DNA of 22,114 bases, taken from a virus. This document shows, in pieces, positions 5,642 to 14,910 of the stretch (position 1 is the stretch's first letter; every line of letters starts with the position of its first letter). The notes beneath the pieces were generated by a model. It made no database searches, was not told where the DNA came from, and saw only the letters and a list, made by a program, of their open reading frames with translations. Where the stretch lies: the IMG/VR virus record IMGVR_UViG_3300042544_001297, positions 1-22,114 of that record. One strand, given 5' to 3'. Made by a program: the position numbers and the translations under genes.

Positions 5642-5986
5642 ATGGCTAAAGAAGAAGACATTGTTGATGCGGAGCTCGTCGTAGAAGACGGCTCGCTAGA
5701 GGTAAAAATAATCGATCCGCAGCCAATCGAGCGCTCGCTACACTACTTTGCGCTTGACGGGAACTACGGTGACGCGAGTGGCATGCTCGTATTGGAGACC
5801 ACATACTGGAGAGAAATCGACTGGGAGATTCTGGAATCCGCTAGTGATGACCAGCGTGCAAACGTTGCACGTCTGATTACGGAGTCATACGAGAAGCCCG
5901 AGGACATGTCGGTGTTGTACGACAAGTTTGAGCAGTACGGTGTAGACCTTGATGACTTCATGCCACGTGACCAGCTTGACAGCTAG
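5642..5986 (+). CDS. Acidic hypothetical protein
   Basis: A 114-aa, strongly acidic protein (MAKEEDIVDAELVVEDGS ... ALDGNYGDASGMLVLETTYW). The middle is predicted mixed alpha/beta and the last 50 residues helical, ending DLDDFMPRDQLDS. The ATG follows GGAAGGGTAAAAACGGC, so the dispersed motif overlaps the ribosome-binding region. Codons near 5701 also contain an AGGTAAAAA variant. No family recognised. A terminator closes the transcript downstream. Confidence 0.7.
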   Translation: MAKEEDIVDAELVVEDGSLEVKIIDPQPIERSLHYFALDGNYGDASGMLVLETTYWREIDWEILESASDDQRANVARLITESYEKPEDMSVLYDKFEQYGVDLDDFMPRDQLDS

Positions 5987-6015
5987 GCCACACGTAGGGT
6001 AAAAATAAGAACTGC

Positions 6016-6042
6016 CGCGGGTTTCTTCGTCGTTATCCCGCG
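6016..6042. other. GC hairpin downstream of 5986
   Basis: CGCGGG (6016-6021) pairs with CCCGCG (6037-6042) around a 15-base loop. It lies between a GGGTAAAAA copy (5997-6005) and the terminator at 6052 and may protect or process the transcript end. Confidence 0.4.
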
Positions 6043-6051
6043 TGCCACACC

Positions 6052-6085
6052 TGAGCATGTGTTGAAACTGCTCACCATCTTTTTT
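6052..6085 (+). terminator. Rho-independent terminator
   Basis: TGAGCA (6052-6057) and TGCTCA (6069-6074) form a stem followed closely by CCATCTTTTTT. A second short GC hairpin (6086-6097) with TTTTT follows at 6098-6102, so two may act in tandem. Confidence 0.65.
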
Positions 6086-6152
6086 CCGCGCTCGCGGTTT
6101 TTATCCCCCAAAGAGGGGACAGGAAATAAATCAAAAAGTTATTGCGTTCTAC

Positions 6153-6181
6153 TTGACACGATTGCAGGGAGATGCAATAAT
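6153..6181 (+). promoter_or_regulatory. GCAGGAA-family promoter
   Basis: TTGACA (6153-6158), 17-base spacer containing TTGCAGGGAGATG, then AATAAT (6176-6181). It drives the 6221 gene and possibly the AAA+ gene downstream. The spacer box is a variant (GCAGGGA) of the common GCAGGAA. Confidence 0.75.
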
Positions 6182-6220
6182 CATCTCAATGCGAAAGCAG
6201 AAACGACGAAAGGATAAATC

Positions 6221-6712
6221 ATGGGATACACCCATTATCTAAAAAGAAGTCTCGATAGTAATGAGCCTGAACTTTATGACAAGGTTCGTAAAGGTTTTAT
6301 CGAGTTGGTAAAAAAAGCTGAACTCAATGGCATAACAGTTGCAGATGCTTTTGGAGAAAAAGCAGGTGCGTGGCAAGCAGATGGCGAGCGCATCGCTTTC
6401 AATGGCATTGAACCACAAGCGTGTGAAACTTTTCATTTCTCTCAGATAGTGCCACCTGCACCTGATTGGGATAAAGATGCAAAAACTTCTTTCAACTTTT
6501 GCAAAACACAAATGCACCCTTATGACACTTTAGTTTGTGCAACCCTAATACTCATCAAAGATGTTTTTGGGAAGCAAGTTGAAGTTTCCTCAGATGGTGG
6601 GTGGGAAGAGTGGTCTGAGGGTCTAGCCCTTTACACCTCAGTTTTCGGAAAGACCACGACACCTGAAAATCTTTTTGCTGAAGAGTTTGCACATTTAGCA
6701 GAGAGATGGTAG
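6221..6712 (+). CDS. 'MGYTHY' family hypothetical protein
   Basis: A 163-aa protein opening MGYTHYLKRS, a widespread bacterial and phage family of unknown function. The typical later blocks are present: ETFHFSQ near residue 70, FCKT...PYDTLVCATLIL around 90-110, and SSDGGWEEWSEGLALY around 125-140. Conserved His, Tyr, Cys and Asp residues suggest a binding or enzymatic pocket, but none is characterised to my knowledge. It starts after AAACGACGAAAGGA behind its own promoter. Codon use is more AT-rich than in the left operon, and this holds to 10182. Confidence 0.8.
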   Translation: MGYTHYLKRSLDSNEPELYDKVRKGFIELVKKAELNGITVADAFGEKAGAWQADGERIAFNGIEPQACETFHFSQIVPPAPDWDKDAKTSFNFCKTQMHPYDTLVCATLILIKDVFGKQVEVSSDGGWEEWSEGLALYTSVFGKTTTPENLFAEEFAHLAERW

Positions 6713-6750
6713 ATTAGTTTTCACTAGCAACAACGACGAAAGGACACCCA

Positions 6751-7206
6751 ATGCTAGATAACACGAAAGATGTTCAGGGCGTAGGCGTTTATGCCGAGTT
6801 CCGTAAGCCCGGAGCAACAATGCAAATCATCATCACACCTGATGGATACACAACTGATGGGAAAGAAGTTCCTGCCAATTTGTTCCGTCGAGTAGTAACA
6901 CCAGCGTCACCTAAGAAACAATGGCGCAACTCTCCAATTCCTAATCACGCGATTACAGAATTAGGTGGAGTTCCACTCTCAGATGAGAAGAGAGAAGCGT
7001 TTGCAAACCAGCGTATGTTTTTCGCGATTGACTTATTCGATGCGATAAATAATGGTGGTTGGCAGATTGTAAAAGATGCGTTTGTTATCGAAGTCTCGAA
7101 AAAAGATTTAGAGGACATACGAACAAGCAAGACACCCAACAAGTTGCTTTACCGAATTGGTTTAGTTCGTGAAGCAACAGAGTTCCCAACAGAACTGATT
7201 GCGTAA
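6751..7206 (+). CDS. Hypothetical protein upstream of the AAA+ gene
   Basis: A 151-aa protein preceded by CAACGACGAAAGGA. The sequence is mixed alpha/beta (GVGVYAEFRKPGATMQIIITPDGY, then FAIDLFDAINNGGWQIVKDAFVIEV) and resembles no family I can name. It sits 20 bases before the MoxR-like gene without a separate promoter, so the two are probably co-expressed, and it may be an accessory of that ATPase system. The C-terminus ends REATEFPTELIA. Confidence 0.7.
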   Translation: MLDNTKDVQGVGVYAEFRKPGATMQIIITPDGYTTDGKEVPANLFRRVVTPASPKKQWRNSPIPNHAITELGGVPLSDEKREAFANQRMFFAIDLFDAINNGGWQIVKDAFVIEVSKKDLEDIRTSKTPNKLLYRIGLVREATEFPTELIA

Positions 7207-7226
7207 AGAGAAAAGGACATAGGGAA

Positions 7227-8270
7227 ATGGAAAATACAAATCTTCGTGAAAGATACAAGTCTCTAGGTGGAAGTTCCACACTATGGGATTTAGCTGAAAA
7301 TGTAATTGCTCAGGCAGTATCAGAAACTTCAACTACAAGTCTGTCTGCAAGTGTCGCACCTGCGGGGCGTTATGTTGCAAGAGCGAGTGGTGCGGAAAGA
7401 GCGCCACGCAAAGATAAGCAGACAGTTATCGTAGATGGCATGGAAGGTGAAGAGTCTTATGTTCGACCAAATGGTGATTTGTATTTTGGTCGCAAGTGGG
7501 GCGAACACTCAGATGTAATGGCGCTACGCAAATCACGCGAAATGACTTCTAAGTCTTTCTCAGGTGAGGGTGGCTCTCCAATGTTCGCCATGATTTATGG
7601 CGCACCGGGTTGCGGAAAAACTGCGATGGTTGAAGCAGCGTTTGGCTCAGATGTTGTCACCTTGATGGGAACTGGCGATACCGAAGTTGCAGACATGGTT
7701 GGTGGTTATGTGCAGACACCTTCAGGTGGTTTCGATTGGGTTGATGGTGGTTTGATAGATGCCGCCGTCAATGGCAAAGTTTATTTCATTGACGAAATTG
7801 GTTTGATTGACCCAAAGGTTTTGTCACTTGCTTATGGTTTGATGGACGGACGACGCGAGTTAGTTGTCACCGCAAATCCAGAGCGTGGCACTATCAAGGC
7901 TCACCCAAACTTTTATGTAGTTGCCGCGACTAACCCAAATGCTCCGGGAGTTCGTTTGTCTGAAGCGTTGCTATCGCGTTTCACTATTCAAGTTGAAATG
8001 ACAACTGATTGGGCGCTCGCTAAGAAGTTGGGAGTTCCAACTGCGATGGTTACTGCGTCTCAAAATCTTGCTAAGAAGCAAGCATCAAATGAAGTTTCAT
8101 GGTCTCCACAAATGCGAGAACTTATCGCTTTCCGAGATGTGGCGAAAACTTTTGGCAATAGTTTCGCTATCTCGAACCTACTTGCCTCAGCCCCCGAAAT
8201 AGACAGACCTGTTGTTGCCGATGTGCTAACAAGGGCTTATGGGGAAGAGGTCAAGCCAGCGAAAATCTAA
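7227..8270 (+). CDS. MoxR/CobS-like AAA+ ATPase
   Basis: A 347-aa AAA+ protein. Walker A is GAPGCGKT (residues 125-132) and Walker B is VYFIDE (165-170). ATNPN (about 214-218) is the sensor-1 region and LSEALLSRF (about 224-232) the arginine-finger segment, which together fit the MoxR/CobS clade. About 120 N-terminal residues precede the ATPase core, including a Ser/Thr/Ala-rich stretch, a basic linker and a charged segment. MoxR ATPases usually remodel or load metal and cofactors into partner proteins through a neighbouring VWA protein, and a VWA gene follows here. Phage CobS-like genes are known but without a settled role; there is no cobalamin pathway in the window. A strong hairpin after the stop could reduce read-through. 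Confidence 0.88.
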   Translation: MENTNLRERYKSLGGSSTLWDLAENVIAQAVSETSTTSLSASVAPAGRYVARASGAERAPRKDKQTVIVDGMEGEESYVRPNGDLYFGRKWGEHSDVMALRKSREMTSKSFSGEGGSPMFAMIYGAPGCGKTAMVEAAFGSDVVTLMGTGDTEVADMVGGYVQTPSGGFDWVDGGLIDAAVNGKVYFIDEIGLIDPKVLSLAYGLMDGRRELVVTANPERGTIKAHPNFYVVAATNPNAPGVRLSEALLSRFTIQVEMTTDWALAKKLGVPTAMVTASQNLAKKQASNEVSWSPQMRELIAFRDVAKTFGNSFAISNLLASAPEIDRPVVADVLTRAYGEEVKPAKI

Positions 8271-8300
8271 CCCTATGTCGGATTTTTGCTGAAAAGGGTG

Positions 8301-8328
8301 GGGGGCGCTTCATGGGTGTCGCGCCCCC
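8301..8328 (+). terminator. GC-rich hairpin between the AAA+ and VWA genes
   Basis: GGGGGCGC (8301-8308) pairs with GCGCCCCC (8321-8328) around a 12-base loop. No T-run follows, so this may be a partial terminator that sets the ratio of the two proteins; the VWA gene has its own promoter just after. Confidence 0.55.
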
Positions 8329-8340
8329 TACTTCCCCTAC

Positions 8341-8370
8341 TTGACACCCAAAGATGTTTCATTATAGGAT
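8341..8370 (+). promoter_or_regulatory. Promoter for the VWA gene, lacking the GCAGGAA box
   Basis: TTGACA (8341-8346) with TATAGG (8363-8368, 16-base spacer) or TAGGAT (8365-8370, 18-base spacer). The spacer reads CCCAAAGATGTTTCAT and has no GCAGGAA element, so this gene may escape the common control. Confidence 0.65.
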
Positions 8371-8412
8371 TTACCTGTCTCGGACAAAGACATAAATGGA
8401 AGGAACGACGAA

Positions 8413-10182
8413 ATGGCACACATAAAGGTTTCTGCGACCAGAGCAGAAAACACTCCGAAGGAGTGGCTAGTAACAGGCGCACAGATTGGCGAACTTGTAA
8501 ATACTTGGTCTGAAAGGTCAGACCTAATCGCTTATGTTGGTGAGGGCGCAGGTGGTATTGCACCAGCGTGTTACAACCCAGCACTTGCAGAGGTTGAAGT
8601 AAATACACAGATTGCTTTTGGTGGCGCGACAACTCCAGCGATGGTTGGCGACCTACGCGAGCGCAAGCAACAATTTGAGTTTCCAAAAGCGACAGGTGCA
8701 ATTCTGCACGAAGCGTTTCACGCAAAGTTTTCTATCTTCGACATAGAAAAGGCTCACAAAGATTTAGCGCAAGATGAGGCTTCAGCGTTGATGCTACTTG
8801 AAGAGGGTCGCATTGAAACTCAGGGCGTATGGCACAAACCTGAGTCAAAAAACTTTCTACGCAGTTGCGCGATTGAAATTGTTATTACAGATGCTAAAGA
8901 GATGGAAGCAAGTGCTTCAACAACTCAAACTTGCGCGAGTGCGATTGGTTTAGTGTTGGCTCGCGTTGATGCGGGTATTTTGGATTTGGCAGATGTAGCA
9001 GGAATTGAAAAACAAGTTGTCAGCTTTTTAGGTGAAGAAGTTGTTTCTAAGTTGCGAGAGATTTCTAAAACTTTCCGCGAAACTATTATTGACTTCCCAA
9101 CTCAGGCAGAAACTCTTCTCTACCCACTAGCAAAAGAGTGGGCGAAGATTGTTCGCGATGTGAAAGAAGAGAAGGGCGAGAAAGATGAGCAGATGGCTCA
9201 GGCTTTCGCTCAGGCACTTGCAGAGGCTTTAGAAGAGGCTTCAGAAGAAAACTCTATTTCAGTTGGTATGGCGCTCGCAGACCAGCAAGAACAAGAAGAG
9301 TCAGAGGCAGAAGCGCAAGCAAAAGCCAAAGATGCAAAAGAGCAAAATGAAAACAAAGATGTTGCTAAAAAAGTTTTCAACAAATCTACAACTGAGATTG
9401 GTGGCGACACTTCTTCTCGATTAGTAGAAACTAGAAAACCAACTAGCGCAGAGCGAGTCGCGGCAGTTACGATTTCTAAGATGTTTGAGAAAGCAAAGTA
9501 TCGCGACAGAGATGCAACTGAGATTACTTCAATTACTCCACCCGGAAGATTGCGCTCTCGCGCACTTGTCCAAAATGCCGCGATGAAGTCACGCGGAATT
9601 GTGCAACAAACAGAAGCGTGGCGTCGCACAGTTCGTAAGCAGACAGACGACCCAACACTTACAGTTGGAGTTATGGTGGACATTTCAGGTTCAATGGGAA
9701 GTGCTATGAAGCCAATGGCGACAACTGCGTGGGTTATGTCTGAAGCAACTCGCAGAGTGCAAGGTAAATGTGCGATGGTTTATTACGGCTCAGATGTATT
9801 TCCAACTCTCAAAGCAGGACAACACCTTGAAGAGGTTCGTGTTTATTCTGCAAGTGATGGAACTGAAAAGTTTGACAAAGCATTTCGCGCACTTGATGGC
9901 GCACTCAACCTTCTCAATGGAAGTGGCGCTCGATTGCTTGTGATTGTTTCAGATGGGCAATACACAGGTGAAGAGAAGCAAAACGCTCGCAGATGGACAA
10001 AGCGTTGCGCTGAGTCAGGCGTTGCGGTTCTATGGCTTCCTTTCGATGGCGGGCATTATGCGAGTCGTATCCTTGAAGAGCGAAATGGCGTAGTAATGTC
10101 AGGAGTGCTTGACCCAGTATCGGCGTCCGTCGAGATTGGAAAAGCGGCAGAACGAGTTCTAACAAATGTGGGGACGCGGTAG
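8413..10182 (+). CDS. HExxH zincin-like and VWA-domain protein, partner of the AAA+ ATPase
   Basis: A 589-aa protein starting after AGGAACGACGAA. At residues 99-103 it has HEAFH in ILHEAFHAKF, an HExxH zinc-metallopeptidase-type motif, and about 27 residues on LLEEGRIE offers a possible third ligand. The middle (about 245-320) is a charged, Gln/Glu/Ala/Lys-rich helical linker. The C-terminal 180 residues form a VWA domain: MVDISGSMGS with the DxSxS metal-ion (MIDAS) motif at 423-427 and VIVSDGQY later. This HExxH-linker-VWA order resembles DUF2201/CobT-like proteins encoded next to MoxR-type ATPases. In such pairs the VWA protein binds a target that the ATPase remodels. Whether the zincin part is catalytic cannot be told. 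It has its own promoter. Confidence 0.85.
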   Translation: MAHIKVSATRAENTPKEWLVTGAQIGELVNTWSERSDLIAYVGEGAGGIAPACYNPALAEVEVNTQIAFGGATTPAMVGDLRERKQQFEFPKATGAILHEAFHAKFSIFDIEKAHKDLAQDEASALMLLEEGRIETQGVWHKPESKNFLRSCAIEIVITDAKEMEASASTTQTCASAIGLVLARVDAGILDLADVAGIEKQVVSFLGEEVVSKLREISKTFRETIIDFPTQAETLLYPLAKEWAKIVRDVKEEKGEKDEQMAQAFAQALAEALEEASEENSISVGMALADQQEQEESEAEAQAKAKDAKEQNENKDVAKKVFNKSTTEIGGDTSSRLVETRKPTSAERVAAVTISKMFEKAKYRDRDATEITSITPPGRLRSRALVQNAAMKSRGIVQQTEAWRRTVRKQTDDPTLTVGVMVDISGSMGSAMKPMATTAWVMSEATRRVQGKCAMVYYGSDVFPTLKAGQHLEEVRVYSASDGTEKFDKAFRALDGALNLLNGSGARLLVIVSDGQYTGEEKQNARRWTKRCAESGVAVLWLPFDGGHYASRILEERNGVVMSGVLDPVSASVEIGKAAERVLTNVGTR

Positions 10183-14077: not shown

Positions 14078-14326
14078 ATGTCTGAAATAGAAATTCTTGA
14101 TTCCTCTGTTCATACGAATTCCGATGGACAGCAGTTTGTTGTTGCCATAGTTGATGATACGAATGATGGCAGGGTAAAACTTGTAGTTATGTTTGATGAA
14201 GAAGGCTATACGGCTGTTCTTGATTTAGACACAATTATTGAAGAAGAAGACATTTCTGCAAAGAAGCACACCCATTGTGGTGCGGAGTATGACGAATTAC
14301 TTCGAGAGGCTCTCTGGGACAACTAA
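14078..14326 (+). CDS. Small acidic hypothetical protein
   Basis: An 82-aa protein of beta-rich, acidic character (QQFVVAIVDDTNDGRVKLVVMFDEEGYTAVLDL), ending in a short helix. It starts four bases after the previous stop, behind GAGGT, and its TAA overlaps the peptidase start (TAATG). Being coupled to the proteasome-like gene, it could be an adaptor or inhibitor of that peptidase, but I recognise no family. Confidence 0.68.
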   Translation: MSEIEILDSSVHTNSDGQQFVVAIVDDTNDGRVKLVVMFDEEGYTAVLDLDTIIEEEDISAKKHTHCGAEYDELLREALWDN

Positions 14327-14910
14327 TGACAACGATGGTGGCTGTGCAAGGACCTCATTGGTCTGTGGTTGGTTGTGACAGCCAAGTAACTGAAGATGAC
14401 AGGGTTTTCCATCTTCCAAAAGATAATCCAAAGATAGTAAAAAATGGGCCCTTTTTGCTGGGCGCAGCGGGTGACATGCGGGCTATCAACTTATTGGCTT
14501 ATCAATTCAAGCCACCTGCGCCGCCTATCAATTGCTCTGGCAATAAACTTGACAGATTTGTAGCAACTAAATTTATCCCTGAACTTAAATCATTGTTTGA
14601 TGATGTGCAGTATGGCGAAAAAGGTAGTCAGGACTCAACAATTCTCTGCGTAGTGCACGGTGCTACATACGAAATTGGATCAGGCTATGACTGGGCAAGA
14701 GATGTTTCTGGGATCTACGCTTTTGGATCAGGCGGATCGTATGCGCTGGGATCGCTGCACAACGAGCTAGAGGGTAAAAAATTCACGGTTTCTTCAGTGC
14801 GTGCTGCTGTGCGGCGCTCGCTAGAGGTCGCGGCGAAACTTGACCCCAACACAGGCGGGCAGTTTTTGATTTTCGTTCAGCAAGACGAGTGCCATCAGCC
14901 AACTAGATAA
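14326..14910 (+). CDS. Proteasome/HslV-like Ntn-hydrolase peptidase
   Basis: A 194-aa protein starting MTTMVAVQGPHWSVVGCDSQVT. Removal of the initiator Met would expose Thr, the catalytic N-terminal nucleophile of proteasome-beta/HslV peptidases. Family features follow: GCDSQVT matches the G.D.r.t region, PKIVKNGPFLLGAAGD the strand-turn with the conserved Gly, and GIYAFGSGGSYALGSL the signature GSG turn (about residues 127-142). Small Ntn-hydrolases of this type occur in actinophages, with no proven role. No partner ATPase is adjacent; the MoxR-like gene is 6 kb away. A GGGTAAAAA copy encodes EGKKF near residue 150. Confidence 0.82.
   Translation: MTTMVAVQGPHWSVVGCDSQVTEDDRVFHLPKDNPKIVKNGPFLLGAAGDMRAINLLAYQFKPPAPPINCSGNKLDRFVATKFIPELKSLFDDVQYGEKGSQDSTILCVVHGATYEIGSGYDWARDVSGIYAFGSGGSYALGSLHNELEGKKFTVSSVRAAVRRSLEVAAKLDPNTGGQFLIFVQQDECHQPTR

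Follow-up and report, generated by a model that had tools for sequence, protein, structure and literature searches.

Phage cobS and cobT genes have repeatedly been counted among the vitamin B12 auxiliary metabolic genes. The viral DNA analyzed here (positions 1 to 22,114 of IMG/VR record IMGVR_UViG_3300042544_001297; 22,114 nucleotides, hereafter the window) encodes a MoxR/CobS-type ATPase next to a CobT-like protein that carries an HExxH motif, which raises the question of whether such a pair serves cobalamin synthesis or another task during infection. The window, a piece of a virus record, agrees at 100% protein identity with a 41-kb IMG/VR contig. Gene pairs of this kind are already known in phages, usually labelled as B12 genes (PMC7824862, PMC8651126). 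Group 2.2 jumbo phages were reported in 2021 to have a MoxR ATPase and a vWA domain fused to an N-terminal metallopeptidase (PMC7824862), and in the same year cobST clusters were described in tailed viruses whose hosts span eight orders, the ‘peptidase’ label on cyanophage cobT being deemed mistaken and viral CobST being proposed to borrow the CobN of the host (PMC8651126). Literature searches found no paper joining the metallopeptidase-vWA pairs of the former study with the viral cobST of the latter.

The ATPase gene

The two open reading frames of a first-pass annotation made from the sequence alone were recovered at 7227-8270 and 8413-10182. The first had been described as an ATPase with intact Walker A, Walker B and ATNPN motifs, and the key residues of all three were invariant among 17 homologues:

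7227..8270, + strand: MoxR/CobS-type AAA+ ATPase, 347 aa (Pfam, PHROG and PDB sequence matches)
7599..7622, + strand: Walker A GAPGCGKT, residues 125-132 (G125, G128, G130, K131 and T132 invariant in 17 homologues)
7779..7796, + strand: Walker B VYFIDE, residues 185-190 (D189 and E190 invariant in 17 homologues)
7926..7940, + strand: sensor 1 ATNPN, residues 234-238 (A234, N236 and P237 invariant in 17 homologues)

The deduced protein matched AAA_5 in Pfam (5.1e-18) and, among PHROG families, both 16448 (‘ATPase’, 7.9e-50) and the CobS-like 249 (‘porphyrin biosynthesis’, 8.4e-24), while Midasin, CbbQ and NorQ were its best matches among solved structures in a PDB sequence search. R251 and R297 were also invariant in the 17 homologues, and the Walker A, Walker B, sensor 1 and arginine finger elements that characterize MoxR AAA+ proteins were all present. 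The C-terminal tail GEEVKPAKI (window 8241-8267) was kept to the last residue in close relatives, most of which end in -KI or -RI. This conserved terminus is possibly a docking tail, but its codons also build the stem of the first hairpin in the gap downstream.

The HExxH-VWA partner

The second gene encodes a protein with the following layout:

8413..10182, + strand: CobT-like partner, 589 aa, with, from the N-terminus, a zincin-like domain, a helical linker, a finger and a VWA domain
8413..9177, + strand: N-terminal helical domain with HExxH, residues 1-255 (AlphaFold model, profile match)
8707..8721, + strand: HExxH zinc-site motif HEAFH, residues 99-103
8800..8817, + strand: EEGRIE, residues 130-135, which may supply the third zinc ligand
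9517..9633, + strand: segment 369-407 (PPGRLR...) ahead of the VWA core, probably a finger that enters the pore (analogy with NorD, PMC13036017)
9679..9693, + strand: MIDAS DxSxS, here DISGS, residues 423-427
9805..9807, + strand: MIDAS threonine T465
9952..9954, + strand: MIDAS aspartate D514

The combination of HEAFH and a DxSxS MIDAS in one 589-aa protein, already pointed out by the first-pass annotation, was thus found at residues 99-103 and 423-427, and the MIDAS of the VWA domain is complete (D423, S425, S427, T465 and D514). The annotation had also proposed following H99, E100, H103 and D423 across phage homologues. All four were invariant in 17 homologues (freshwater contigs, phage DSL-LC01, Microbacterium phage Pumpernickel and three Gordonia phages; 23-87% identity), together with E130, E131, R133, E135, R184, S425, S427, T465 and D514. 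The element E130-E131-x-R133-x-E135 is a motif beyond those noted before, and its four residues were invariant in a 45-row alignment as well. Even the Gordonia and Microbacterium phage versions (23-37% identity) keep HExxH, EExRIE and the MIDAS. Loss of HExxH or MIDAS residues in most homologues had been named as an outcome that would speak against a remodelling or protease machine; HExxH and DxSGS were instead kept in 73/73 translated IMG/VR relatives (44 once near copies were removed), and the idea therefore survives.

The partner itself gave no significant match in Pfam and none in a PDB sequence search, where the matches obtained were discarded as chance coiled-coil only; some of its relatives reach Pfam VWA_CoxE and VWA. 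Membership in DUF2201, to which a likeness had been suggested earlier, was not supported, no Pfam match to it being obtained at E ≤ 1 in any of the 17 members. A pattern scan of genome contigs with the window family returned no cellular relatives.

An AlphaFold model of the full partner, built with 45 natural sequences, had a mean pLDDT of 85. Its top Foldseek match in the PDB was the VWA of NorQ-bound NorD (E 5.7e-7 to 1.1e-5), the region that holds the finger included, followed by Rea1-MIDAS (2.4e-5). In both NorQD and Rea1-MIDAS the VWA domain docks on the AAA+ ring and inserts a finger into its pore (PMC13036017, PMC9976466). By analogy, segment 369-407 of the partner, which folds as strand-helix-strand in the model and contains P376, G378, A390 and G395 invariant in the 17 homologues, is the probable finger entering the ATPase pore. 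The N-domain modelled alone reached a pLDDT of 90.8 and a pTM of 0.88, and among viral models it matched VWFA- and CobT-labelled phage proteins (E 3e-6 to 3e-4). Its top PDB fold match was selecase, which we take to be a small HExxH metallopeptidase; the Foldseek probability was 0.77 but the E value 0.83, so that the match is read as a hint, and no solved zincin was significant. It is likely that the HExxH of the partner binds a metal, and the chances that it cleaves protein are about even.

Gene surroundings in the window and its relatives

Two further features flank the ATPase gene:

6751..7206, + strand: companion gene, 151 aa, immediately preceding the ATPase gene (21 invariant columns, 13 syntenic homologues)
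8271..8412, + strand: ATPase-VWA gap with two stable tandem hairpins, then a CTTGACA promoter-like box at 8340-8346

The ATPase gene adjoins the partner gene in 20 relatives, while in Pumpernickel the two lie 30 kb apart. The gene at 6751, which the first-pass annotation had tentatively called an accessory, behaves as a companion: it is syntenic in those relatives with upstream sequence available, and a distant homologue adjoins the ATPase in Pumpernickel (hhalign E 3.8e-8). Conservation and synteny of the pair and its companion are well beyond chance. A gene located between the ATPase and the VWA gene in Gordonia phage Phendrix proved not to be homologous to the gene at 6751. Pumpernickel gp228 (786 aa; 5830-8190 of locus L025) also adjoins the ATPase homologue and shows a domain like the ATP-binding one of sacsin/HSP90 (E 8.5e-9, short of the model cut-off).

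The first gap hairpin straddles the stop codon of the ATPase (hairpin region 8250-8412). Hairpin stability in the gap had a z of -4.6 in the window and of -2.8 to -7.4 in 8 relatives, where stem sequences differ and pairing is kept in single-sequence folds; RNAalifold on a MAFFT alignment of the gap recovered 4 pairs only, because the stems were misaligned. These hairpins are probably terminator-like. No Rfam match was obtained anywhere in the window. Hairpins also occur in other gaps of the window, and CTTGACA is found 14 times in it (4.2 expected), mainly in intergenic positions and on the coding strand, so that separate promoters may serve many of the genes.

Elsewhere in the window, 14326-14910 encodes an HslV-like (proteasome-type) Ntn hydrolase with Thr at position 2 (PHROG 1040, 3.9e-23), no HslU-like gene being detected among the proteins scanned. 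This protein was discarded as an obligate partner of the ATPase, since it was found in only 11/19 carriers and in 0/3 of the Gordonia carriers searched. A possible terminase small subunit at 836-1837 was weakly indicated (PHROG 2538, E 0.0027).

In close relatives, most neighbouring genes have no assigned function, and this setting gives no indication of its own that the pair belongs to replication. In DSL-LC01 the pair lies approximately 14 kb upstream of the terminase, and in Gordonia phages a WhiB gene precedes it. In other phage types the pair is found among replication genes: the cyanophage order is gp46 - ‘peptidase’ - cobS - gp45 - gp44, and in Rhizobium, Pseudomonas, ICP2 and SSU5-type phages it lies near DNA polymerase, primase or ligase.

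Relationship to viral and bacterial CobT

Profile alignments and the Pfam and PHROG matches above agree with the earlier description of a MoxR/CobS-type ATPase with a CobT-resembling HExxH-VWA partner. The N-domain profile aligned with the Gordonia/cyanophage CobT-like set (E 1.1e-7) and with the Rhizobium/SSU5-type CobT-like set (6.5e-7), HExxH falling on HExxH and EEGRIE on EDxRIE, and the two sets aligned with each other at 2.1e-10. The HExxH motif was present in 79/80 cyanophage sequences (the exception is 5'-truncated), in 24/26 Rhizobium/SSU5-type sequences (both exceptions are fragments) and in 9/9 DalanDe-type sequences. It was replaced in Pseudomonas phage hairong (SEIAK), Acinetobacter plasmid pORAB01-1 (QEVAK) and Stenotrophomonas phage BUCTxx99 (REVST); with three phage or phage-plasmid lineages keeping the pair and lacking HExxH, the site is therefore dispensable in some. 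No loci were found when IMG/VR was scanned with the ICP2 and CRP-810 proteins. A CobT-like relative was also found in 995 plasmid records, mostly from Klebsiella, Escherichia and Acinetobacter, and those inspected resemble phage-plasmids.

In contrast to its presence in nearly all phage versions, HExxH was found in 0/76 bacterial CobT ORFs among the matches listed (one motif scan, mainly alphaproteobacterial; ORFs with the full N-terminal part were counted), a difference that is reported here as new. At the corresponding position Sinorhizobium and Cereibacter CobT have SMALR and AFALR, respectively, while an EQARVE-like motif is retained and aligns with EEGRIE of the partner. In a tree of the VWA part, bacterial CobT fell within HExxH-bearing phages, with Roseobacter phage CRP-810 as its neighbour (98/91), and at least two changes are needed on this tree to account for the loss of HExxH. 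This nesting within the phage radiation, also new, is suggested by sequences on a small tree; as the tree is unrooted, has 36 rows and contains long branches, the direction of descent is given as a suggestion.

The pair in the window thus has counterparts in several known systems. With group 2.2 jumbo phages it shares a MoxR gene and an N-terminal metallopeptidase-vWA, compared by description (PMC7824862), and the combination that marks the phage metallopeptidase-vWA proteins (N-terminal HExxH fused to vWA, MoxR gene nearby) was found here; the clade of the window is, however, related to actinobacterial phages, and its relatives are roughly 100-190 kb. Like viral cobST and the cyanophage ‘cobS’ and ‘peptidase’ genes (PMC8651126, PMC3037559), it places a CobS-like ATPase beside a CobT-like VWA protein, and the N-domains align. 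Unlike them, its partner is too divergent for Pfam CobT or CobT_C, the ATPase comes first rather than second as in cyanophages, and the pair has its own upstream companion gene. With bacterial CobS/CobT it shares the MoxR ATPase, the CobT-type N-domain, the MIDAS VWA and the aligned E-x-x-R-x-E-like motif, whereas bacterial CobT works with CobN and lacks the HExxH of the window partner. In N4-like phages the neighbour of gp25 (gp24) is presumably an ATPase. Gp25 itself is listed as a core vWFA-domain protein (PMC4193335), a likeness by description only. We regard the window pair as a new and divergent example of a phage module that is already known, within the phage-type MoxR/VWA class (CobS/CobT-like, NorQ/NorD-like).

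Cobalamin-related genes in carriers of the pair

CobN (PF02514) was absent from all 19 phage carriers searched; the same search gave no match in an E. coli control, although phages of E. coli and Salmonella have the pair. Of 18 carriers, 8 had no ribonucleotide reductase large subunit of any kind. An adenosylcobalamin-dependent (class II) RTPR was above the cut-off in 12/14 IMG/VR relatives and was also found in DSL-LC01, and adenosylcobalamin-dependent reductases were detected in 13/19 carriers, none of them Gordonia phages. The Pfam CobT models PF06213 and PF11775 matched none of the 17 partner family members at E ≤ 1, and PHROG CobT reached just 2 members (0.0037). The missing CobN and the 8/18 carriers without a reductase large subunit make a general cobalamin role unlikely, while the adenosylcobalamin-dependent reductase in most close relatives keeps a cobalamin link possible for the clade of the window alone. 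The claim that there is no cobalamin pathway here accordingly stood as regards CobN, but not in full, given those reductases. Membership of the pair in a cobaltochelatase was not supported; a NorQD/CobST-like way of working was.

Proposed mechanism and alternative explanations

The ATPase and the partner very likely work as a MoxR/VWA pair. Our preferred reading, to which we give slightly less than an even chance, is that the pair is a remodeller powered by ATP and directed by its MIDAS, to which a zincin domain is attached, and that it acts in the early or middle phase of infection. This reading builds on features seen directly in sequence or model, namely the conserved motifs, the homology with CobT-like phage proteins and a VWA fold like that of NorD, and on the mechanism given for NorQD (PMC13036017). 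The ATPase would form a hexameric ring, into whose pore the finger of the partner would be inserted, while the MIDAS of the VWA domain would grip a client protein. ATP hydrolysis would then twist the partner, pulling the linker and the N-terminal domain, and the client would be remodelled. The zincin-type HExxH site and the downstream EExRIE helix, if zinc is bound, would most likely cut the client and, less likely, metallate it.

The timing of this scheme bears on an alternative that we consider unlikely, namely that the MoxR/VWA chaperone and its peptidase domain help to assemble and process structural proteins of the virion. This is precisely what was proposed for MoxR and metallopeptidase-vWA pairs in PMC7824862, where an archaeal virus MoxR-vWA system required in tail assembly is cited, and the distance of about 14 kb to the terminase in DSL-LC01 would agree with it. 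However, cyanophage, ICP2, Rhizobium, Pseudomonas and SSU5-type pairs lie amid replication genes (gp46/gp45, DNA polymerase, primase, ligase) and not structural ones, so that an early or middle role is favoured over virion assembly. Gene position in several phage types, together with the lack of CobN, likewise argues for early or middle infection rather than cobalamin synthesis, and the proposal that the pair replaces CobS/CobT and borrows the host CobN, yielding more B12 for class II ribonucleotide reductase, appears quite improbable. Although it was put forward for viral cobST (PMC8651126) and fits the RTPR of 12/14 relatives and DSL-LC01, phages of E. coli, itself negative for CobN, and of Salmonella have the pair, 8/18 carriers have no reductase large subunit, and genuine CobT lacks HExxH (76/76 among the matches listed). 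More widely, viral ‘cobST’ genes are probably not B12 genes.

Two further explanations concern the HExxH site itself. The pair might open a phage or host metalloenzyme and insert a metal, with HExxH binding or delivering it and not cleaving; NorQD, the closest solved structural relative, puts non-haem iron into nitric oxide reductase, its known client (PMC13036017), and CobT-like relatives serve cobalt insertion. Yet bacterial CobT has no HExxH (0/76 among the matches listed) and still fulfils its known role, and no single metalloenzyme goes with the pair, even the adenosylcobalamin-dependent reductase being confined to 13/19 carriers and missing from Gordonia phages; we hold metallation to be as unlikely as virion assembly. 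Alternatively, HExxH could be a structural remnant of a pseudo-enzyme in which MoxR/VWA remodelling alone is used, as the three lineages that kept the pair and lost the motif would suggest, but both histidines, the glutamate and the downstream E-R-E are strictly invariant across very divergent phages, and this explanation is very improbable. A broader version of the remodeller-zincin reading, in which viral ‘cobST’ is an ATP-driven metalloprotease of many unrelated tailed phages, not a set of B12 genes, and bacterial CobT was derived from it by loss of the zinc site, is put forward as a doubtful, though not negligible, possibility.

Implications for phage biology

The HExxH motif provides a clean sequence mark, which nearly all phage versions have and all 76 bacterial CobT among the matches listed lack; as it splits the phage from the bacterial group, the phage versions are argued to have a different task. 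Should they act as an ATP-driven protease or remodeller, this would be a take-over or replication tool common to cyanophages, enterobacterial phage-plasmids and actinophages, and the client of this shared tool could then be sought directly.
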